Source: Mesaphorura yosii (lineage: Eukaryota; Arthropoda; Collembola; Poduromorpha; Tullbergiidae). From it: a stretch of DNA of 64,000 nucleotides. Under the pieces are notes generated by a model. The model did no database searches and was not told the origin of the DNA. It saw only the letters and a program-made list of their open reading frames with translations. Every line of letters starts with the position of its first letter. The first letter of the stretch is position 1. Below, one piece after another: positions 5,625-20,767 of the stretch. The DNA lies in contig WIXG01000018.1 of assembly GCA_009869945.1 (NCBI GenBank), forward strand, positions 248,001 through 312,000, written 5' to 3'. Position numbers and translations under genes: made by a program.

Positions 5625-8600
5625 CTGCATCAGAGAATTCGGTAAAATACCGAACAACATTTCATTACATTACAGACAGCACAACTACCACGTGTATACA
5701 CAGATACGGATACCTTACCTATAATGTGTGGAGCAGAGAACAGGACTGCGAAAATTGCAAAATAGACATGAATTATAAACCACCCTCGAGGCAAGCAGTA
5801 AAATATGGCGGGTAATTGAGGGACCTCCTACCTGCCACGGTCGCAATTATCGTGAATGATGTAAAAACATAAAGACATATTCGGTCCACCACCATTGCAG
5901 CAAATTTCCAGTCGCCAACGACCTCGGCGTCTTCTTCAGCTTTCTTCATCCGCGCAGTAATAAAACGAAGTTCACGTAAAATAGATTGAATATCTTTTTG
6001 AGCTAGTGCACAGGATGATGATACGTCGGTTGGTGGCGGAGGTTGGTCCATTCGAAGGTAAGAAGAACTCATGCGAATATCATCGTCCATATCTGCGATA
6101 ATTATTATATTGATGAAAATAAATTTATTGCTAAATGTTGTTTATTGCTTAATAAACATGCTCTTTGCTTGCTGTTATGTTTGTATATTTGTTTGTTTCT
6201 AACAGATCATTTATCCATTCTCGAGCGTCTATCAACCAGGTGTGCAATCAACAAGTATTACTTTATGCTTAATCAGTGTAAACATGGCGAATGAAGCTAA
6301 CAAGAAAGTTTTGGACAGAATTTTCTCATTCATAAGCGACGGTGAGAGCGAAGGGGTGGACGCAACTGCAAGTGCAACAAAGAGAGAGGAGCAAGTTCAA
6401 ACTGACGAGGCTGTAATCATCACCCGCGCAACAACATCTGAAGAGTTCAAGCGAGCTCTGCTTTTACTTAAACACCCGAGAGGAGAAAACACACAGAGGA
6501 AATTCTCCTTAGTGCCAAGAACTCAAAGAAACCCAAGATTTTACAAGATAATTCGCAAGTGCCTGACCCGAGAATCGCGAGAGCTTGGCAGTGGGATCCA
6601 GTTCCCAGTTCTCGAGAATCCCGACAAACGAAAGTGGCATCTGATAACAATAGCTGTACAAAACAGTAGCTGTGCATGAACAAAGTCACAATTGAACAGG
6701 GAGGTCAACTTTTTATGTAGAATGGGAAAGATTCGTTCCAGCAACATTTGCCTCGTCCAAGAAAGTCAACTTCGAGTTAAATTCTACTGAATTGAGTATC
6801 CTGCAAAGGTTCATGAATGGAATGCGAAGTAATCAGCAGGAGTTCACAGTCCCAATTAAAGGAATGGGGAACGCAGCTGCTCTTCCGGAGGTGAAGTTGC
6901 TGAGAAGAATTCTGGCTACAGATTTAAAGAAAAGCGCCATTGCAAGGCAGCAGGGTGATGGCATTAGACATCTTCATATCAAAAAACTAACCCAGGATTT
7001 ACTCCCATACACCGACTTACCTGGTGGTGAGCCTCCGCTTGGCGCAGCAGGGAGGTTTCATAAAGGTAGTACATTTATAACCAATACTTTTGAAATTCTT
7101 TAAGAGTATCAACTTCCGGGAACCTGAATTGACTTGAAACGAATTTAATGGCAATTGATATCTTTACAGATACTGTCAATATTATAAATAAGAACGCCCT
7201 GTATGGACATTATGGTCATGGGATCTTCTGGTGTCGTCAAGCAACCTGCCAGCTGCGAGACTGCGTCACCGCCTCATTCACCGTTGACTTCGGTTATGAG
7301 AAGGACATCAACGTTACTAAACGTTTTACTTGTGACACCGATAGCCTTGTGTACATGATCCATTGTAACACTTGCAAAGAATTTGGATCATACTCCAATC
7401 ACGTGGGATCTACAAGCCTCTTCCATAGCCGTATGTGCAACCATATGAACCCGGCGTCGTCACAAACATGTCACATGCCAAAAATACTCGCCAAAGTAGA
7501 TTCAAGCTTTCATCACGAGCAGTTCTGACACCAATAAATTCGGACACGACTCACATGTACATTTCGCTTACGAACATGAAAAGAAAGGGAGATAAATTCT
7601 CAAAGTCACAATTTTGAACAAGATTCCGGACAACGCCAATCCCAGACCCATCGAAGATAAGTACTGGTTCGTACGATTACAAAGGTCTCGGAAGAGGAGG
7701 TCTTAACGCATTTGGAGGATAACATCCCAAACCCCGCACGATTGACTTACTCAAGCACAACACTTCTGGTTATTTTCACGTCAAGTATTTAGTTTCTCAG
7801 TACGTTAGTACTCGGTTATTTAGTTTAGTTGAATCGTTCCTGAATTCCTATAATTTCGTACTTGTACAATAACAAGCCAATAAAACATATTTGAATAGAT
7901 TGGGTACTTACCAAGTACATTGGCAAGAAGTGATTTTGATGAACGCTCTTTGATGTCTTTCAATGCTTTCATTTTATGGTCCTTTCGTAAGGTGGAACGT
8001 GTTATTTTCTTTCCTGGACGACTCATGTGCAGAATCCAAGGAAGCCACTGAAGAAACACCGTCTTTACCTATTTCAGAGACACGCAGGGTAATATTCAGA
8101 GAAAATAATCGCATTTGATCTCAGCCTTGCACTCACATTTCGGCAAATTACACTCATAGTCTACGCTCCAAAGAAAGTGTGTCAGACTGTATTTTGGCCA
8201 CCCGAGTGCAGGATTCTCTGGGCAGGCAATAATGCTAAAAGCAATTCTGTCCAGGTTGGCGTTTGCTCGTTAAGGATTGGGAACATGTGTAACTTATTAT
8301 TTCACCCAAATGTAATTGGAAACTGTAACCCAGATAATCCTCATGAATTCAGCATGCTTATGTCACGTCAAGTCCTAATGAGTGCCTAATACATTTTCGC
8401 ATTTACATGCCCGCAGATTGTGAGAATTAGAACAGAAATGACTGATGGTGTACAAATTTAATTATAGCCAAGACAGTGAGCGATGAATAATGTCAGGAAT
8501 ATCGACTGATTAGGAGATTGATGTTCAGGTGTGTGAAATGTGAAGTCTGGTCGGTGTGGATTTGGGACGTAACCGCATCTCTTCGTACTAAAGTGGTCGT

Positions 8601-11600: not shown

Positions 11601-14600
11601 GAATGTAATAATCTCTTCCTTCCTCAATCGATTTATTCACAACGGCAGCGACGAAAGTTGAAGGATGCGAAAGAGGAAGCTCGAAAATTATGGCCTTGAT
11701 TCAGTTACAGTTTCATCTGACTTTTTTGACATGAAATGATATGACAAACTGGAATCCAAGAACAGTATTGAATGGGCATGCACAGTTGGGTAGCTGTACA
11801 GCTGGGAAGAAGTTAGAGTTGAATTTAACTTGTAGGCTATGAGTGCCCGAATTACGATTAGAATGCCACGCGTCAGCTTGATTTAAGAAAGACTTACCCA
11901 AGGAGGCATTTCGTGCATCGTGGCAGTGCGGTGATGATAGTTGAGAACAACCACGGTCAAGACTACACTCGAGGCCACCATAAACATAATGCAGTTGAAA
12001 TATGTACCTGTGAAGACCAGCATCAAAGAATATATTTTGACAAGAACCTTTGACTTCTTCGAAGAGGTGCGAAAGCACATCATACAATAATGCAACGCGT
12101 CTACATGCACACTAGGCAATTCACGCTACATTTAAGCTGTAGACAGATCATTCTCAAGCTTCAACATTTAATATTACCATAAAGCGGATAATGATGAAAG
12201 GAGACTATAAAGCACAGGTTTGTTGCGTAAGTACATTTGGGAAAGGATATATTTTAGTATCACAAAAATTAGTCGGGATACTACAAAAAGCAAGTGAAGG
12301 TCTCAAATTACAAGTCTGAAAATGTTCTAAATTTGTTGAAGTCGTTACAAATTACAAGTAAATATAAACATGTTAATTAGATGAAGGCAAGCGTAAAATC
12401 TCAAGAGATTGAGCTAAATAGGAACTCGGGTGGTATTGTAAGAAACGACTTTATGCCATTTTGCCTAGATTTCGCCTCTCCAAAGGTAAAAAGTGCCATT
12501 AATTGAAGTCCATCTTTAAAATTAGATGTTCGGAAAACTCCCTTCGTTTGGTAAAAGACTCTCCTAAATTCCAAGTTAAACAGCCATTACGCCAAAGTTG
12601 TGAATTTTTCTTGTGACCATTCAACTAGCAATGTGCAGTAGAATTTCTCTGTGCCAGTGTTATTGTGATGTGATATGTCTCACATGCTCAGTTATGTAAT
12701 TACGTGCGTTAAATCATGAAATGAACATGCCAAATTAATAACATCGTCGTGACACGCACACGTCTGCGGCTTTGTCGTAGATAGTCAGACTGTTTGAAAG
12801 CTAACTAAACACCGTTTTACATTACAGAATATTCTTGCATAATGTACTGGCTATAATTTCTCTTTGACAAGAAGATGGCCCACAAATTGGAAACGAGAAT
12901 GAGCCGGAGGTCATATTTGTGTTTTGTTACCACTTTTTGCGCTTACTCGGAGATGGATAAATCCCGCAATGGATTAAGTCGTTTCTTCATTAATTATAAA
13001 CGCTTCCTCTCATGCAGTTGGCCATCTGTAAGACGCACTAATAAGGAACTCAGGTTAGGAATCGCAATCAGGCGGCACTGTCTATTAAATGGCTCAGGTA
13101 TCTACTCAAAGTCGTACTAACGATCGCTCACTTAACTGGACAAGACATTTTTTCAAAAGCAAAGCTCACAAAATCACAAAAATTGCGTGACATTGGTCTG
13201 GACCTCAACACACAAAATGCGATCTAGTGTCCAAAAGTGTATAGCATTCAAAAAGTTTGTCAATGCTAATCGTATGTCGCTTTCTCAAAAATAATGTCCA
13301 ACCATCTTAGTAACGTCCAAATATTCAGTGTGCAAAGTTCAAGATAAAAATTCCCAAAGTGGCAAAATTGCTGGTTGCTCAATCGCAATTGCGAGAACAG
13401 CAGCAGTTCAAAATATTGAATTCGGGGAATTCACCCGTTGGAATTAGTGTAAAAAATTGAACCGGTCGTTCATGAGGATTCCTCATCACTAAAAACAGCA
13501 GAACTGTTAGAATGTTAAAAATTGCTCCCAACTTCACCTTCTCCGGTCTGAAGCGGTGCATGCGGGTAAAGGTAGGCGAAAGGATTACGACGAGCAATCA
13601 CATTTCGTGGAGAAACCGAAAATGGCAATCGGTTCAAAGGAGATAAAAAATTCCAAGCGAGTGATATAAATTGAGTAGTAGCGGCCACCGAAAAAGTTGG
13701 CATTTTCGGATGAAAAGTGGTAAGCGAAAAATTCAAATACGAACTAAATCCAAAATTGCAGGGAATGAAAGATTTGAAGAATAAGAATTGCACAACGAGG
13801 CGGAAATGGAAAGGGATTACAAAAATGCTGATGCTGGGCCAATGATAGTGTATGACAGATTTATTGAATATCGCACATGATTGACAATTTCGGGATAACA
13901 TTGGAAAGGGTTCATTCATGACACGGATCGGAGAAATCAACGGGGAAGCCTAACATTCATTATGCTGGTATTGAGAAAAGCAACGAAATTTTTACGTCAA
14001 AAGAATGGAAGGATGGACACAGTTGAAAACGATTTCATAAAGTTCTTAGAATGAGGTTTTGTTAGAAAGAGGAAGGGACCGGGTGAACACTAGCTGAATT
14101 ACTCGAAAAGTGTAAGTAGGCATCAAAATATAATACTGGAGGATCATTTGAAACGTACAACTGGATTAACTTTAATTAAACTAGTAACGTCGTCCTTGTG
14201 CGGTGTGACACATACCTAGGAGGGGTATTGCGTCCGACACTAGAGGTTGGAGAGTTTAGGAAGAGTAATGACAGCTGTTTAGAACCTTTGCAAAATGCCG
14301 AAAGTACACGTAAAGCAATTCTGATTACCTTGGGGTAGCTTCTCAGCGACCAGATTCAGAAACACAGTTAATGACAGCAATATTGTTACTCCTGAGAGAA
14401 CACACAATATTCAAAGTGAAATTCAAGCATTTTATGGCGAATTCATCCTCCAAACATCAATAAAACTCTGTCGTGAAAAAAAATTTCAAGAATTACAAAA
14501 TTCCCATGATACTTTCAAGAATTTCGACCGTCAGGAGTTTTGTATCTTTTCTTATCTACATTTGAATACATCACCCAGCCTGGGCACGTTCCTGGAATAT

Positions 14601-17600
14601 ACGTTCCTGGAAGACAGATTTTCCCATGAAGAATGTGATTATATGAAATATGTGCCCAATATTAAAAGGCACGGAGGAATTACATCTAAGCGCAGAGACT
14701 TCGTCGCGACTTCCTTTATTAATTTTCATAGTGAAAATTCTAATGTCAACGCTCTTGATGAGAGTATAAAAGCTCGACGTAGGCAGCAAAGGAATTGACA
14801 CGACAAATTAAAATGATTCAGTCAGCAAGTGGCGCTTTCCACATTTACAAAGGCAAGATTGACAAAAATAAGGATCAAATTGCTTCCGACCTACAAGTAA
14901 CACTGGAATGCCTGCTTGCTTGTTTTTACAAAGCCCGGTTTACTGCATGGTGTCTAGTTCGTCTAGTTGGGTGCGGCCTTTTCTCCATTCACTCCATAAG
15001 AAGCTGAGATGTTATTAAATTGTGTCGAAGTCGGGAGCATGTTTTTATGTGGGCTTTGTGAACAGGAAGCAAATGCCATAAAGGACTGGAAGAACGGATC
15101 AAAAGACACATTTCTAATCGCGTCTTTTCCTCGGCTTGTTTCCGAATTGTATCTTTGTCATTAAACAATATACATTAAATAATGAGTTCGGTTAAAATCA
15201 ATTTTCCAACATGAAAGATGTCAAACTGGAAGCTTATCAAGACTTTTCTCTTATCACTATTACCTTCACGTGACTGAGTAATTCAAAGGCAGTATTATTC
15301 ACATGTCATCTTGCTTGAGACTACAATACAATCACAATGCCGTGCGTTATCAAGAGATTCCGCATTAAAAAATTGACGTGCTGCCGGAAGCATCAGCTTC
15401 GGCCTAGATTAGTTAGTAAGGAATATAGTATTTTGTTCCTTTCGAATAACGCGTACCGTCATGTTTAAGTACAGCCGTCGTTAACAATGCACCTTGTCAT
15501 TGCGTCGAGCGTCAGCGGTGCCTTTTGTAAGACCTTCAGTGTCGGTGGTCGAAAAGTCGGTTTCTATTAAGTCGCTTACATTGTCTTGAAATGTCAGACT
15601 GGACGTCAAGTCTTAAACGTCGGAAGTGTTAGAGTCATGCAGTGACAGTCGCGTTTAGCAAGTGTCGAATGTCCACATAGCTAGTGCTAAGTATCCATTA
15701 CAAGACTGACGCGGACGTACGTACAACTTGACAATGCCAAGTGCAGCGAAAGTTCAAAATGTTTACCAATTAAGGGTACCGCATCTGAGGAAGCAGGCAT
15801 CTTCTCGGCAACCATGTTCAGAAACACAGTTAAGGACAGCAATATTGTTACTCCTGAGGGAACACACACAATTGACAGCATTCGTAATGTCCGCGTTGCG
15901 AAAGTCTGTTCATCGGTTACAAAAATTGGACGAGTCATCAAAAACTAAATGTTCACTCTCGAGAAATAGGTCCAGTTTGATGTGGGTGTAAAACTCGGCC
16001 ATTGCTCGCTTCCGGTGAAAGCGTAAGTAACAGAAAGGTGAGAAACTTGTACTGGTAACGTGTAGGGTCAATCCAGCGTAGAAATAATGAAGGAAGCCAT
16101 TGTTCGCTTTATGATTAGTGTTATTTAATTCCATTATTTTATATTTACCAACCCATCTTGGCGAATGTCGGCCGTAAGAGAAGGTATATTTTAAAAATGG
16201 AAGTAAATGAACCACCGCTTTCGTAAATAAAATTTAATTGATCGAAAGAGAGACGCATAAATATAAAAAATGAAATGGGCACATTATTTCTTGTCTTTTT
16301 AACTGTGCTACGCTGGGAGCAAGGCCACGAGCGACGAAGTACGTGCTTTCTCCATGATTCATGTCCCAAATCACATTTATGTACACGGCGCATTAATGTC
16401 TACGCTGGTTAGATTGAAACAGAAAGTGAATTTTATTGGGCTCTCTCTGTACTCATTTTGCTCAGGTCGCCCAATTTTATGGACGAGAGAAAGGAATGGG
16501 TCATTTTGGAATGTTTACGACTTCACGACCAAGTCGAAGCGTCGTGGCCGTGTACTGTATTAGTATCAGTCTGGGGTCGTACACCTACTCACTGCAGATT
16601 TTATGTCTCAGCTACGTCTCTAACTAGAATTAGTTCCTTGGTATTCGCTTCTTGTTCAGTGCTGATGTAATAAATCCATCCTCTCCTCTTCCCGTGTCCC
16701 AACACAAAATATTAGTTTATAACGCTTTCTCTCCTTCACAAAGCAAAGTGCCATTTCTGTACAAATCGTCAACGGACCTGACGAAACTGTGTCTATAGTC
16801 CATTGTGCTCCTTATTAGAATTGTCACGCTTGTCTTTATTTGTCCAGAAACCGCTTTGGATTTCTGTCCCTTTTCGAGGGAAATTTTCGCCTCATTAGCA
16901 CAGTACCTCACATATTCTGTCTCACTCTACGATATGTGAGAGACTAATATATTTTGTGTTATAATGAAAATGCATTATACCGTGAAACAACAGGTTGAAA
17001 TCTCGGAGGTAAATGAATAGAATGAATCGGAAACATCATCGGAGCGAGACTTACCCAGTGTAAGTTTTTCTCCCGAGTCAGGAGGAAGAGTAAAGCCCAG
17101 GAGGGCCATCGAAGAAATTAGAACACATGGGACAATCAAGTTAAAAAAATAGTATAAAGTTCGTCGTCTGATTTGGATGGTATATGTTATGCTGACCTGC
17201 GGACCAAAAATCTGATATCAGAAACGTGCTGTACCTTCATTTAACATACTAAATGAAAGATTCGACTTGCATATGGCTCAGGGCAGCAGACATAGTGAAT
17301 CACGTCTCGGACTCCAGGCATTCCTGCCAAATATAGAGAATTTACATCATATTTCGTAACAAGTCTTCCCAGCACCTCTGTTTTCCCTTATCATAGTACA
17401 TCAGTTCAATATTGGGGTAATAAAGTGAAAAAATATGCAATGGTTGGGCTATGCATCATTTCGTTTCATCTTCACTTGAAATATGAATATGAAAAAGAGA
17501 AAACATTATTATGATCGTTAGATGATGAATAACAACATTATTATTAAAGCAGTGGAAGAATTTGGATAAATTATGTGATTTAGGAGTTCTGATTTCTTCT

Positions 17601-20600
17601 AAATGGTTCTAAAAGATATATCATTTACATCAGGTTTATACTGCACATGGGTTTACTGCCAGAGAAAGTCGACATGGAACTCGAAGGTTGAGAGATAAAA
17701 AGAGTTTTACTACTTTTCTGATTTAGAGCATTCCACATTTTTGTCTGTGTGTGCAATGAATATAAAAGCGAAGAAAGGGTCCAATGGCTGCTGCATGCAA
17801 TTTAATGGGTTGGACAGAAGTGATAACATGGTCAGGACTTAACATAAAAGAGTACAGAAAATAGCCTGAGAATTGATTTAGTTTGTCACTTTTTTATTAG
17901 TCGAGAGAAAGAAGTCTTACGTGTCGGCCATTTCGCACTCTCATTGCACTCACAACTCTCGGCTTAAGATTAAGGACTTGTGCTTTGGTGGACTTAAAGA
18001 AATCAGTGCCTTCTTAAGCCTCAAATTGAAGAACTATAGTTAAATCTCGAAAGAAAACTTCCACTTATGAACTTGTCTTTTACGTGACAGGACGAGAAAA
18101 CAACAGAATAATTTAACTTTATTCAATCGGGTTAACTGTGAGAGAAAGAAGCAGAAATCTACGAATCCTGACTGCAAGGATTATTTATTGCTTTCCCTTA
18201 ATTCAATTTCCTTCTACCTGCTTGCTTGAACTCAAGCCGTCTTACGAGTCAACGACTTCTTTTTGCAAGTCAAACAGAAACTTTGGGTGTTAAGTTGGGG
18301 AAGAAATTGAGGATTTCAAGAGATGTCAAACAATTCATGAGCAAAGTTATCTTTGCATTATGAGATGCAAGCACAGAAAAGTTGACTCACCCAACAATTC
18401 CCATTCTCCGTTGGGTATATAACTAGATAAGTCGCCTCCCGACTCGTCCTTCAAACTCAGATCAACCTGCAGTAAAGTCAAGTTAGAATCGGCCTACAAA
18501 CTTCTGTCGTTGCCGCATCCCATCTCACCTGGAACCCGTCGTACCTACAAGCATTCATAAATTCAATGCAGCAGTTGGACATGGAGAAAGTACGCGCGTA
18601 ACTTACGTCCAGCTTCCGAATTTCATTGTGCACTTCTGATCATCAAAAGGGAACCACGTAATGTCGATTTTGCATGTGCTCTTAAATATTCCCGGTGGCA
18701 CGTAAAGGCAGCTTCCATTGTTTCGGACAACAATATTGGTGGCAAAGGCTCCGTCAAATCCTTCGTCCGCACTACAATCAGCATTGATTAGTTTATCAGC
18801 ATTGGGACAACTTTCTTTTCAGTATGCTGCAGCGTTACATTGCTGTGATTGCCAAAATGAATGTCACTTTATTCAAGCCAACTCGGGTACGCAGCCCCTA
18901 ACTGTTGCATTTGACTTGATGAATGCCAAATATGCCGACTATCGCAAAGGTAGCCAATTTTAGCTCAAAGAAAGCCTGAATGACGCTGTTACAGTTCGCA
19001 TATTGCGCTCATTCATTTTCTGACAGATTATTTATGTAAATTGGAGTTTGTAAAAAGAAAGGAAGAAAGAACTCCAAAGCCCTTTCACTACACTCCATTA
19101 CCTTCCTCTTTATCACTCGAATATTATGCTCTGCCACTGGCGCTGCAAATGCAGTCTATCAATCCATTAACGTCATAGAGAATCTAGCCAGAGAAGCAGT
19201 GCCGTCAATAATACTCAGAGCGTGTAGGTTTAGAGCAGCAGATTCAATTGCTCGCAGCATTCTGTATCAGAAGAGTCGAGGCACGTAACATGTGAAACTG
19301 AAACGGAGAAAGCTACTTCATCTTTCTCGCTCCACTCTTATGAATATTTCCTCTTGTTTCTTCGTATTTTGACGATGATTAATGATGGTTTCGAAGCGAC
19401 CAACCACGTACCACGACTTGTACCATATTTTCAGGCATTATTCACCCCAGTACTTTTAAATTCAATAATTTTATGTTGCCGCATATCTTAATTTAAGTTC
19501 TCAAACCCGGATGAACACGGAATTCCCGAGACAGAGAGAAATTTATAAATGGATCGGATGTTTCATATTTGAGGTTATGATTTCGCATAATTTGGCTTTG
19601 ATTTGCATTTTAAGTGCAGCGGAATCAGCAATACAATGTCTTGGCACAATCCCGCGCAATTATTACTGCGAATCTTATGAGTAGCGGAACGTGTTGAAGC
19701 AAACACAATAAAATTTACATAAAGAAACTATTACGTGATTTCGTGGGTTACGAGTTTCATTCGTCGTGTTTTGATGTAGTGAATCCTTACGTTGAGCATC
19801 AACAACGTAAGTACTCGAGACATTATACCATGCTGCTATTTGGAACACGCATTAAAGTGCCTAAATGCTTGTACAATGTTTTATGCTCGTTTTTCGTTCA
19901 TGTTGTAAACCAAACTTGGTTTATGCTCCGTCCATTTTTATGATAAATTGCTTCACTTGGCAGAACAAAAGGTGCGCTTCATCCGAGCTGCTTGTATTTA
20001 AATTGTTGACCTGAATTTTGCAATGAAAGTTTATGGATTCCGTATTCGAAAGTTATGACAAGATGATTCATTTACTGTTTAACATAAAATGCGAGAGTTT
20101 CTTGCGCTAGCAGAGGACTGGATTGTGGTCTTAAAGTACTCGCCTGTTATACATAAGTACGTCAGGTCTGCCAATAGGAGAGATGTGACAGAGGGTTGAG
20201 AGTATGCCCAGGATCAAGATGGTCAGCATTAAATTAAAGAAAAAGTCATTCAATTTCTCATTCGGAAGCAGGAGGGTCTATAAGGCATGCCTTACCGCCA
20301 TAACTTCTGAGGTGATATCCTTATGTTATCCAACGGCCCATATTTGCTCGTATTCCATACCAGGTTGTAGTCTGTCCACTCCTGTAAATACCATTGTTGA
20401 AAAGTCAAAACTCGGAAGGAACTGAGACTCGTGACTGAAACCAAACGTTAACATACCAGATTCAGCCACACATTTGTCGTTAAAATTTGATCCTTCTCGT
20501 TCTGCATTTGCATAGGATGTCAACGAATTGGTTGAGGTGATAGAAGTGATAATAGAAAGAATAATGAATCCAAATACAATTCATATCGTCATGTTAGGCA

Positions 20601-20767
20601 AGGAAACAGCATTTGACTTACCACGTCGATTATTTGCATGAGCGTTAGGCCGAAACTAACTTGTAACGTTTCGCTTTCATTAGCGACTGGTCTCTCGAGT
20701 AAATTGTAGTTTTTTGGATCCAAAAGATCTTGAAGCAAATTTTTTTCGTGAATACCACCTTCGACAC
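5620..20767 (-). CDS. Nicotinic acetylcholine receptor alpha subunit, insect alpha6/alpha7-like (multi-exon gene, 5' end missing)
   Basis: Subunit of a pentameric acetylcholine-gated cation channel of the plasma membrane, acting at cholinergic synapses. Coding exons on the minus strand: 20767-20622, 20501-20457, 20381-20296, 20167-20144, 18771-18607, 18544-18529, 18466-18391, 17323-17271, 17196-17055, then 15853-15767 or (14391-14329 + 14239-14216), 12007-11898, 8068-7912, 6092-5832, 5745-5719, 5624-5620. All junctions keep frame, and total coding length is 1400 nt (466 residues after the first split codon). Visible hallmarks are the 15-residue Cys-loop with FPFDDQKC, the vicinal cysteines YVCCPEPY that define an alpha subunit, TM1 after RRRTLYYFF, the GEKLTL entry to TM2, TM3 with [10 protein letters not shown], a loop with FLQWLPWIL and [11 protein letters not shown], an MA helix with RFITARM, TM4, and the ending SAPHIIV. 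Family assignment rests on recalled similarity to Drosophila nAChR-alpha6. The signal-peptide exon is not identified. Confidence 0.97.
5719..5745 (-). CDS. nAChR microexon, 27 nt: end of TM4
   Basis: Acceptor GCAATTTTCGCAG, donor ATTATAG|GTAAGG, phase 1 on both sides. It encodes VLFSAPHII, the conserved end of arthropod alpha subunits. If the donor is ignored, translation runs on for 28 residues (Cys-rich, no family resemblance) to a TGA at 5632-5630. The spliced form gives the expected ending and is preferred. Confidence 0.85.
   Translation of the reverse strand, partial: SCSLLHTL
5832..6092 (-). CDS. nAChR exon: variable loop, MA helix and TM4
   Basis: 261 nt. The acceptor is AATTATCGCAG and the donor is GCAG|GTAGGA. 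It begins with the rest of the Asp codon, then [20 protein letters not shown] (variable loop), the amphipathic helix [20 protein letters not shown] and [20 protein letters not shown], and most of TM4 ([14 protein letters not shown]). The loop is shorter than in Drosophila alpha6, which has a longer insertion between the acidic DDD and the MA helix. Confidence 0.96.
6284..6679 (+). CDS. Open frame of 131 codons in receptor intron, unknown
   Basis: An ATG in a fair Kozak context (AAACATGG) opens a charged, helix-prone frame beginning [20 protein letters not shown] and ending in TGA. No family was recognised. It lies antisense within intron 6093-7911, about 470 bases before the Penelope-like remnant. 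It may be part of that insertion (an eroded 5' part), a chance frame, or a small nested gene. A further open stretch at 6792-7103 in another frame ([14 protein letters not shown] onward) is equally anonymous. Confidence 0.2.
   Translation: MANEANKKVLDRIFSFISDGESEGVDATASATKREEQVQTDEAVIITRATTSEEFKRALLLLKHPRGENTQRKFSLVPRTQRNPRFYKIIRKCLTRESRELGSGIQFPVLENPDKRKWHLITIAVQNSSCA
7148..7740 (+). mobile_element. Degenerate Penelope-like element, GIY-YIG endonuclease region
   Basis: Lies in the receptor intron 6093-7911, antisense to the host gene. One frame reads cysteines in [11 protein letters not shown], then [20 protein letters not shown], a VGSTS..L..R..NH segment and a stop at 7526-7528. This matches the order of C-x-x-x-x-VVYLI-x-C-x-x-C, YVGxT, R..H in the GIY-YIG-type domain of Penelope-like retroelements. 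Past the stop, other frames give EDKYWFVRL (about 7650) and [12 protein letters not shown], recalling the family's E-x-x-WI-x-x-L...P-x-GLN ending. Frame breaks and the loss of the reverse transcriptase say it is dead. Confidence 0.6.
7912..8068 (-). CDS. nAChR exon: start of TM3-TM4 cytoplasmic loop
   Basis: 157 nt encoding [20 protein letters not shown], then [20 protein letters not shown] and [12 protein letters not shown] plus one base of Asp. The acceptor is CTGAAATAG and the donor is [23 protein letters not shown] is the membrane-proximal MX helix region. [14 protein letters not shown] is a signature of insect alpha6/7 loops. The preceding intron (8069-11897) is 3.8 kb. Confidence 0.96.
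8069..11897 (-). other. Receptor intron between TM3 and loop exons (3.8 kb)
   Basis: GT-AG intron. Apart from the tandem repeat near 9.8-10.05 kb I see no coding or RNA feature. No second copy of the TM3 or loop exon was noticed on the minus strand. Confidence 0.85.
9784..10050. repeat. Degenerate tandem repeat, about four copies
   Basis: Repeated blocks share the pattern CCTTCCT, then ATTTATATCG or ATTTGCATCG, then CCAATGA or CCCATGA, then TTTTGTTAG(T/G)GTGT. They are seen near 9790, 9868, 9920 and 9985, with irregular spacing of roughly 65-80 bases. It lies in the receptor intron 8069-11897. No coding potential or terminal structure was seen; it is probably an eroded minisatellite or nested repeat. 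Confidence 0.45.
11898..12007 (-). CDS. nAChR exon: TM3
   Basis: 110 nt encoding [20 protein letters not shown] followed by [16 protein letters not shown]. The acceptor is GGTCTTCACAG and the donor is TGG|GTAAGT. It accepts either TM2 version in phase 1, forming a Gly just before TM3. In insect alpha6, a glycine at the top of TM3 is the site of the G275E spinosyn-resistance change; whether it is this glycine needs an alignment. LNYHHRT..MHEMP is strongly conserved in arthropod alpha subunits. Confidence 0.97.
12008..14215 (-). other. Receptor intron after alternative TM2 exon B
   Basis: Non-coding between microexon 14239-14216 and TM3. I looked for a third TM2 copy (insects can have 8c) and for another PLL-G linker, and found none. 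The 141-codon open frame at 13515-13940 on the minus strand shows no recognisable domain and no conserved receptor motif. Confidence 0.75.
14216..14239 (-). CDS. nAChR alternative TM2 exon, version B, second part (24-nt microexon)
   Basis: Between acceptor CCAACCTCTAG and donor CCTAG|GTATGT, phase 1 on both sides. With the base from 14329 it reads VSDAIPLL plus one base of Gly, completing [12 protein letters not shown], the exact linker known from insect alpha6/alpha-type subunits. 63 + 24 = 87 nt, equal to version A. Found by searching for the residues that version B lacked. Confidence 0.9.
   Translation of the reverse strand, partial: CRTQYPS
14329..14391 (-). CDS. nAChR alternative TM2 exon, version B, first part (63 nt)
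   Basis: Encodes [20 protein letters not shown] plus Q and one base of the next codon, between acceptor ATTGTGTGTTCTCTCAG and donor CCAAG|GTAATC. The first 41 coding bases differ from version A at one position, and the 3' splice-site sequence is also similar. On its own it is 24 nt shorter than version A. The missing 24 nt are supplied by the microexon at 14239-14216 after an 89-nt intron. Confidence 0.92.
14392..15766 (-). other. Spacer between the two alternative TM2 versions
   Basis: About 1.4 kb separates exon A from exon B. No other exon was recognised. If splicing is mutually exclusive, pairing or repressor sites governing the choice would be expected here, but none can be called by eye. 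Confidence 0.6.
15767..15853 (-). CDS. nAChR alternative TM2 exon, version A (unsplit, 87 nt)
   Basis: Encodes [18 protein letters not shown], then [11 protein letters not shown] plus one base of Gly. The acceptor is TTGTGTGTGTTCCCTCAG and the donor is ATTG|GTAAAC, phase 1 on both sides. It carries the pore-lining TM2 and the TM2-TM3 linker. It is interchangeable in frame with version B at 14391-14216, and this A/B choice ([11 protein letters not shown] versus [11 protein letters not shown]) parallels the insect alpha6 exon 8 alternatives. Using both would duplicate TM2, so exclusive use is inferred. Confidence 0.94.
15854..17054 (-). other. Receptor intron upstream of the alternative TM2 exons (1.2 kb)
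   Basis: GT-AG intron starting TGG|GTAAGT and ending at the CTCAG of exon A. I found no additional TM2 copy. Confidence 0.8.
17055..17196 (-). CDS. nAChR exon: TM1 and start of TM2
   Basis: 142 nt encoding [38 protein letters not shown] and PDSGEKLTL plus one base of Gly. The acceptor is GGTCCGCAG and the donor is [20 protein letters not shown] opens TM1. GEK is the intracellular selectivity-filter end of TM2, with the glutamate typical of cation channels. The first residues read VSITYTI where relatives have V/P-D-I-T-F-T, so an aspartate is replaced by serine. Confidence 0.97.
17271..17323 (-). CDS. nAChR exon: loop C with vicinal cysteines, GC donor
   Basis: 53 nt encoding [17 protein letters not shown] after a split Gly. 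The adjacent cysteines with flanking tyrosines (Y.CC....Y) form loop C of an alpha-type acetylcholine site. The acceptor is TATTTGGCAG. The donor is TAT|GCAAGT, the second GC-AG intron of this gene (17197-17270, 74 nt). No GT donor in the right phase lies nearby. Confidence 0.94.
17324..18390 (-). other. Receptor intron before the loop C exon (1.07 kb)
   Basis: GT-AG intron starting at GTGAGT. No coding signal or repeat was seen. Confidence 0.8.
18391..18466 (-). CDS. nAChR exon: loop F region, 76 nt
   Basis: Encodes [19 protein letters not shown] followed by GEWELL plus one base of Gly. The acceptor is TTACTGCAG and the donor is TTGG|GTGAGT. GGDLS....NGEW is a hallmark of arthropod alpha6-like subunits, and it lies just before the loop C hairpin. 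Confidence 0.95.
18529..18544 (-). CDS. nAChR microexon, 16 nt
   Basis: One base finishing Thr, then TAC GAC GGG TTC CAG (YDGFQ). It has acceptor AATGCTTGTAG and donor CAG|GTGAGA, flanked by two introns of 62 nt each (18545-18606 and 18467-18528). It restores the conserved SWTYDGFQVDL, which would be broken without it: the upstream exon ends in phase 2 and the downstream exon starts in phase 0, so skipping causes a frameshift. This is unusually small for a constitutive exon. Confidence 0.92.
18607..18771 (-). CDS. nAChR exon: beta strands and Cys-loop
   Basis: 165 nt between acceptor TGATTGTAG and donor AC|GTAAGT. It encodes [20 protein letters not shown], then [12 protein letters not shown] and the Cys-loop [15 protein letters not shown] (two cysteines 13 residues apart), ending MKFGSW plus two bases of Thr. 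ITWFPFD is the loop B region with its key tryptophan. The DGAFATNIV and [14 protein letters not shown] stretches are typical of insect alpha5/6/7 subunits. Confidence 0.97.
18772..20143 (-). other. Receptor GC-AG intron (1.37 kb)
   Basis: Starts GCGAGT at 20143 and ends TGATTGTAG at 18772. No coding signal was seen inside. It is the longer of the gene's two GC-AG introns. Confidence 0.85.
20144..20167 (-). CDS. nAChR microexon, 24 nt, followed by a GC donor
   Basis: Supplies the end of an Arg codon, then PDVLMYN and two bases of Ser, joining KLW to the next exon as [18 protein letters not shown]. This is the loop A motif of the ligand site, conserved as KPD(V/I)LMYNS. The acceptor is ATTGGCAG. 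The downstream intron (18772-20143) begins with GC in AACAG|GCGAGT, not GT. Both phases fit only with this microexon included; skipping it would shift frame across the junction (phase 2 to phase 2 with loss of 8 residues would stay in frame but delete loop A). Confidence 0.93.
20296..20381 (-). CDS. nAChR exon: loop D/A region, 86 nt
   Basis: Encodes [19 protein letters not shown] and IRISPQKLW, then two bases of a split arginine codon, between acceptor ATTTACAG and donor CG|GTAAGG. WTD....W is the conserved loop D aromatic region, and NTS is a sequon. The 86 nt here plus the next 24-nt exon equal 110 nt, the size of the single exon found at this place in vertebrate CHRNA7. An extra intron therefore seems to have split an ancestral exon. 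Confidence 0.95.
20457..20501 (-). CDS. nAChR exon 3 equivalent, 45 nt
   Basis: Exactly 15 codons, [15 protein letters not shown], between acceptor AAATGCAG and donor CTG|GTATGT, phase 0 on both sides. A 45-nt third exon encoding DEKNQ..TTN.WL is an old, conserved feature of nAChR genes. In insect alpha6 genes this exon exists as mutually exclusive copies 3a/3b. I saw no second copy in the flanking introns (20382-20456, 20502-20621). The usual D-E-K-N-Q is N-E-K-D-Q here. Confidence 0.95.
20622..20767 (-). CDS. nAChR exon: mature N-terminus, first helix and beta-1
   Basis: 146 nt. The acceptor is TTTTCCGCAG and the donor is GTG|GTAAGT. The exon enters in phase 1, so the first two bases finish a codon begun in an unseen upstream exon. 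It encodes [17 protein letters not shown], then the conserved [11 protein letters not shown] and [19 protein letters not shown] is the N-terminal alpha helix of nAChR subunits. NES is an N-glycosylation sequon, and VANESE is shared with insect alpha6-type subunits. A signal peptide must be encoded upstream. Confidence 0.95.

Follow-up and report, generated by a model that had tools for sequence, protein, structure and literature searches.

A collembolan nicotinic receptor gene with two predicted versions of exon 8, one of them split by its own intron, and a sister gene with the reverse arrangement

In insects, the versions of exon 8 in the gene for the nicotinic receptor subunit alpha6 are described as alternatives, with 8b the most used (PMC1919356, excerpted text), and as mutually exclusive (PMC6393475, excerpted text). 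We analyzed a comparable locus in the collembolan Mesaphorura yosii. The stretch examined, a 64-kb window of the 93-Mb genome (assembly GCA_009869945.1, contig WIXG01000018.1, here C18, positions 248,001 to 312,000), contains on its minus strand a nicotinic receptor gene with two predicted versions of exon 8, A and B, encoding the second transmembrane segment (TM2) and the linker to the third (TM3). Version B is completed by a microexon, B'; the corresponding versions in a sister gene on the same contig are called A' and B''. Unprefixed positions refer to the window and sister-gene positions to contig C18.

Fifteen exons of the window gene were placed, from 20767 down to 5836, with the signal-peptide exon and the 3' end outside the settled set. 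The joined product containing version B is a stop-free sequence of 454 residues that matches both Pfam cys-loop domains (PF02931, 2e-68; PF02932, 2.2e-58; the scan covered this joined product). Its closest solved structure is human alpha-7 (E 1.4e-140), followed, among other kinds of subunit, by beta-4 (1.4e-110). It contains a C-x13-C Cys loop and the vicinal CC of loop C (YVCCPEPY), motifs of the nicotinic alpha type. Exon totals of 110, 195, 87, and 110 nt are those of CHRNA7 exons 4, 7, 8, and 9. Judged by its best solved relative and its exon totals, the window gene is a member of the alpha6/alpha7 group of nicotinic subunits. A sequence-only reading of the window had proposed an alpha6-type receptor with alternative versions of exon 8, B being split by an intron of its own, and the sequence supports this proposal. 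The reciprocal split in the paralogue, the split exons 4, 6, and 7, and the conversion-like tract described below did not figure in that reading.

Exon 8 in the window gene and in its sister

The exon 8 region of the window gene comprises the following features:

15767..15853, minus strand: version A, 87 nt, unsplit, 29 residues (ctcag/GAG...TTG/gtaaac)
14329..14391, minus strand: first part of version B, 63 nt, 21 residues and the first base of the codon for V (ctcag/GAG...AAG/gtaatc)
14240..14328, minus strand: extra GT-AG intron splitting B, 89 nt, phase 1, in codon 22
14216..14239, minus strand: microexon B', 24 nt, completing B with VSDAIPLL (ctctag/TGT...TAG/gtatgt)

These boundaries agree exactly with the earlier proposal of a single 87-nt exon for A and, for B, a 63-nt exon plus a 24-nt microexon 89 nt downstream. 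As it also held, both versions begin and end in phase 1: the exact junctions, every one of them in phase 1, give 29 residues each for A and B+B'. The two differ mainly after the pore, as expected from the same reading, with one residue difference in codons 1–18 and five in codons 19–29. Retention of the 89-nt intron would bring in-frame stops into the message, and B without B' would be shorter by eight residues of the TM2-TM3 linker.

Candidate microexons (24 nt between AG and GT) were scored against the intact version B'' of the sister gene. B' scored 32, the next of 183 minus-strand candidates in the window 8, and the best of 223 plus-strand candidates 20. Among the six candidates in the interval from B to the next exon, the runner-up to B' scored −12, and 2,000 base shuffles of this interval gave a best score of 20. 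When the splice-site condition was dropped, other 24-mers of the window reached up to 26, including the end of version A itself at 25. It is very unlikely, judged by these scores, that B' is a chance reading. A pattern search for the microexon sequence came out near control level (18 vs 10) and was not used. In the 115 kb searched for a third version of exon 8, the extra matches were chance-like (E 0.19–0.69; cut-off E up to 1).

A paralogue lies head to head with the window gene, on the plus strand of C18 from 329865 to about 345555, its exon 8 some 76–80 kb from that of the window gene. Its arrangement is the reverse, with A split and B whole:

C18:340147-340215 and 340298-340315, plus strand: version A', split 69+18 nt by an 82-nt intron
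C18:342216-342302, plus strand: version B'', a single 87-nt exon
C18:343339, plus strand: end of exon 9 used for donor scoring
C18:344342, plus strand: end of exon 10a used for donor scoring

The split points of the two genes are 6 nt apart, that of the sister gene lying further along the aligned exon. Over the last 11 codons, two residues change within each of the pairs A/A' and B/B'', and four to six across types. Changes at codon positions 1-2-3 number 4-2-20 for A/A' and 5-2-17 for B/B'', altering 3 and 4 of the 29 residues, respectively; such a third-position excess would be expected from purifying selection on the protein sequence of both versions. The same comparison bears on whether version B might be dying or unused, the 89-nt insertion being a sign of decay. 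The imperfect first donor of B would suit such a fate, but B+B' keeps exactly 87 nt, the phase, the splice dinucleotides, and 25 of the 29 residues of B'', with 17 third-position changes, and we give decay almost no chance of being correct.

In the paralogue, exon 3 (45 nt; 333868 and 335476), the split exon 7, and exon 8 all occur in two versions; freely combined, these would yield up to eight products. Its donor at 339593 (ACC/gtttaa) is poor, agreeing with the consensus at 3 of 9 positions.

Within the window gene, an 83-nt tract at 14334..14416 (minus strand) is 86% identical to 15796..15878 (minus strand). It covers the acceptor region and the 5' part of the exon and stops before the split in B. 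A and B differ here at 5 of 54 bases in codons 1–18 and at 17 of 33 in codons 19–29 (Fisher p 2e-5), a break of which A' and B'' show nothing (23 of 54 and 12 of 33; p 0.65). The tract is probably a product of gene conversion between A and B. Since the acceptors of A and B are nearly identical, they are unlikely to decide the choice of version alone.

Origin of the extra introns

Splitting is not limited to exon 8. Both genes also have exons 4 and 7 interrupted, at a different site in each copy: exon 4 (110 nt in total) is 86+24 in the window gene and 91+19 in its sister, and exon 7 (195 nt in total) is 53+142 in the former and 39+156 and 49+146 in the two versions of the latter, whose split points differ by 10 nt and in phase. 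A 181-nt piece that is unsplit in the sister gene corresponds to 165+16 in the window gene. These equal exon sums in the two genes hold independently of the CHRNA7 lengths. The introns at the eight splits specific to one gene or version measure 62–128 nt. An alpha7-like gene on contig C1060 has exons 4 and 8 whole.

For comparison we used 31 other distinct cys-loop places in the genome, the first 19 chosen by long matches and 12 added that had a broken membrane-domain match. Sixteen are of nicotinic type with a readable exon 8 region (14 from the first set, 2 from the added one); the remaining 15 showed no match (3), a partial match (2), or were chloride-channel-like or partial (10), the chloride-channel assignment being made by a signature that we presume to mark that class. 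Both exon 8 split points are unbroken in all 16 nicotinic-type loci, which are not all independent, the TM2 peptide being identical in the C167 locus and one C528 copy, and again in the C782 locus and another C528 copy. The unsplit state is therefore most likely ancestral and, given the 6-nt offset of the split points, each split is probably a separate gain. Two of the 16 loci (C627:500-1300 and C528:500-1300) are themselves interrupted within TM2 by a short intron that follows codon 9. We conclude from these comparisons that introns most likely entered the TM2 region more than once.

These last two loci are near-identical, and their TM2 intron is absent from relatives at C528:6k and C782. In a third nicotinic-type gene on C18 (379500-387500), the TM2-TM3 region lies in one open frame. 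The cys-loop family of this genome is large: exon-level matches, which are not gene counts, number 115 for PF02932 and at least 154 for PF02931. The genome also has 66 matches to Chitin_bind_4, in keeping with an arthropod, whereas a search for COX1 gave no match.

An alternative origin would be one older exon 8 intron that slid and was then lost from A in the window gene and from B in its sister. The split points do lie near one another, 6 nt apart in exon 8, 5 nt in exon 4, and at most 14 nt in exon 7, and near intron pairs in Drosophila often result from sliding (PMC2891723, excerpted text). In a simulation of independent uniform insertion, such joint closeness in the three exons arose about 5 times in 10,000, a figure to be taken as a guide only, because the distances were chosen with the data in view and the codon-9 intron of two other genes was left out of the count. 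Sliding would, however, require two extra losses and an exon 8 intron older than the A/B duplication; none of the 16 other nicotinic-type loci has an intron at the split points, the codon-9 intron points to separate gains in the region, and the split points in the sister gene's exon 7 versions are 10 nt apart and in different phase. We consider a single slid intron unlikely. The clustering may reflect either a local preference for intron gain or the sliding of some positions.

No sequence similar to the 89-nt intron of B was found elsewhere in the genome. An introner or repeat origin was rejected: in a search that skipped simple repeats and very common words, the split-B region matched only itself and A, and the split-A' region only itself. 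Short direct repeats at the intron ends were likewise rejected as an insertion footprint, with 6 of 8 positions agreeing for the B intron, but 1–4 of 8 for the other seven splits and 1–4 for five older introns.

Presumed choice between the two versions

We think it probable, from the arrangement of the two genes, that short spliceosomal introns were gained after gene duplication in B of the window gene and in A of its sister, and that the split exon is spliced as one unit competing with the other version. We infer the order and gain of the introns from the paralogues, and the splicing and protein steps are likewise inferred. The 14 introns placed in the window gene fall into two classes, 62–128 nt and 1067–3829 nt; those flanking A and B-B' measure 1201, 1375, and 2208 nt, as against the short class for the extra intron. 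Intron definition is the mode of recognition usually ascribed to short introns. The 89-nt intron would be recognized in this way, its removal being the default, and B', too small for exon definition, would be carried with B as a 176-nt composite unit; split A' of the sister gene would form a unit of 169 nt. Such a unit would take the place of the ancestral 87-nt exon in the competition with the other version. Because B and B' would most likely be spliced together before this choice, across the short intron, the special, coordinated form of exclusive splicing that the sequence-only reading called for can be dispensed with. A C. elegans microexon loses its need for PRP-40 once the upstream intron is very short, and intron definition has been suggested there for microexons beside short introns, in a model that its authors call speculative (PMC8378409, excerpted text).

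The donor of A agrees with the consensus at 5 of 9 positions, those of B and B' at 7 of 9 each. A's donor is the weakest of 14 scored in the window gene, in line with B as the default; B is also the version that we take, by its 11-residue linker, to be insect 8b. The choice would alter the TM2-TM3 gating linker and, at position 17' (Met/Leu), the outer end of TM2, and would leave the selectivity ring unchanged.

Mutual exclusion of A and B is presumed by analogy with insect alpha6. A and B are adjacent, homologous, of the same length (87 vs 63+24), and of the same phase 1, the marks of an exclusive pair. Several observations weigh against the proposed competition between exclusive units. Nothing built in would force exclusion, the exon lengths being divisible by 3, the distance from A to B 1375 nt (steric exclusion would call for less than 50 nt), and the splice sites GT-AG at both; the reading frame survives A+B (174 nt), A+B', B without B' (63 nt), and the omission of both versions, so that frame enforces nothing. 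A 2208-nt intron follows B', which leaves the short intron on one side of the microexon only, and the first donor of B, AAG/gtaatc, has no G at +5. No RNA pairing element of the docking-site and selector kind, capable of directing the choice, emerged among inverted repeats or intron-pair duplexes: inverted repeats of at least 16 nt are absent from 12008-17054, and the best duplexes for three intron pairs were weaker than all six controls in one case and within their range in two (controls being first-order Markov sequences, six per pair). Frame shift, steric distance, and U2/U12 mismatch explain only part of the human exclusive clusters (PMC5740500, excerpted text); hence the failure of such built-in mechanisms here does not exclude an exclusive pair. 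With exclusion left unenforced by frame, distance, and splice-site class, a trans-acting regulator would be expected to make the choice.

The same freedom of frame would allow A and B not to be exclusive at all, either A or B-B' being a cassette or both being included in a subunit with a double TM2. All combinations tried are in frame, and both exon 3 versions are included in adult silkworm alpha6 (PMC1919356, excerpted text); the exon 8 versions of insects are nevertheless reported as alternatives (PMC1919356 and PMC2064938, excerpted texts). Two TM2 helices in one subunit should be incompatible with the topology of a cys-loop receptor. A non-exclusive arrangement is in our view decidedly improbable.

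The split might instead be regulatory, B' being a controlled (e.g., neuronal) microexon that needs a factor of the Srrm234/eMIC or PRP-40 type, with B alone lacking the eight linker residues and A under the same control in the sister gene. Pieces of 24 and 18 nt are in the microexon range, the gene encodes a receptor, skipping keeps the frame, and the acceptor of B' has a pyrimidine tract with CTCT; eMIC exons of Drosophila are likewise small and have short introns on either side and UCUC-rich tracts (PMC8797185, excerpted text). Another microexon of the window gene, 18529-18544, has TGC at −9, −26, and −29. The eMIC hallmarks of a UGC near the acceptor and a weak 3' splice site are, however, lacking in B': its 60 upstream nt contain a single TGC, at −53 (the sister-gene piece has its TGC at −22, and the two exon 4b microexons lack one), and with 15 of 20 pyrimidines the acceptor is not weak as reported for eMIC exons. 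The intron downstream of B' is also long. We regard a controlled microexon as quite unlikely. Less likely still would be that reciprocal splitting is functional in itself, the restricted pore version having become an exon-plus-microexon unit (B here, A in the sister gene), so that opposite variants come under the same microexon control, and the intron also shielding the variant-specific linker from the conversion that keeps the pore helix alike.

The rest of the gene and comparison with known systems

Beyond exon 8, the window gene consists of the following placed exons:

20622..20767, minus strand: exon 2, 146 nt, N-terminal ligand-binding domain
20457..20501, minus strand: exon 3, 45 nt, 15 residues
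20296..20381, minus strand: exon 4a, 86 nt
20144..20167, minus strand: exon 4b, a 24-nt microexon (PDVLMYN) with a GC donor (gcgagt); 86+24 = 110
18607..18771, minus strand: exon 5/6a, 165 nt, Cys loop
18529..18544, minus strand: exon 6b, a 16-nt microexon (YDGFQ)
18391..18466, minus strand: exon 6c, 76 nt
17271..17323, minus strand: exon 7a, 53 nt, carrying loop C (YVCCPEPY); the intron after it is GC-AG (gcaagt), 74 nt
17055..17196, minus strand: exon 7b (TM1), 142 nt; 53+142 = 195
11898..12007, minus strand: exon 9 (TM3), 110 nt
7912..8068, minus strand: cytoplasmic-loop exon, 157 nt
5836..6092, minus strand: exon with the end of the cytoplasmic loop and TM4, 3' end provisional

The exon 6b microexon is flanked by two 62-nt introns. 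Two introns of the gene are GC-AG, CAG/gcgagt (20144/20143) and TAT/gcaagt (17271/17270), each following a piece of a split exon. No second version of exon 3 stood out within the window.

Alternative TM2 exons of alpha6 are already known; a split version and reciprocal splits in sister genes appear to be new, as in the Creative Commons-licensed PMC papers searched no report was found of one alternative version being interrupted by an intron of its own, in agreement with the sequence-only reading, or of sister genes in which opposite versions are split. Alternative exon pairs are usually sought as single exons of similar length, and a version made of an exon and a microexon would escape such searches and annotation. 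Sister genes with opposite split and intact versions offer a natural experiment on the effect of an intron on version choice, and the intron positions of the two paralogues, which cluster without coinciding, bear on how new introns arise.

The locus shares with insect alpha6 (exon 8a/8b/8c of Drosophila, Tribolium, and Apis; PMC1919356 and PMC2064938, excerpted texts) the alternative TM2/linker exons in a subunit of the alpha6/alpha7 group and, as in most of those insects, two versions of exon 3, here in the sister gene. It differs in that one of the two versions is 63+24 nt and the sister gene splits the other, whereas the excerpts of these two papers describe no split version. Vertebrate CHRNA7 has the same total exon lengths and the same phase-1 ends of exon 8, but a single exon 8 and no known internal introns, in contrast to the internal introns and two exon 8 versions found here. 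A version made of two exons is known from the exon 7-8 pairs of GNAO (PMC5896119, excerpted text), where the pair is duplicated and both versions consist of two exons, and not, as here, one version only. Finally, as in the near intron pairs of Drosophila (PMC2891723, excerpted text), novel introns lie a few nucleotides apart in related sequences; here, unlike there, the related sequences are alternative exon versions and head-to-head paralogues.

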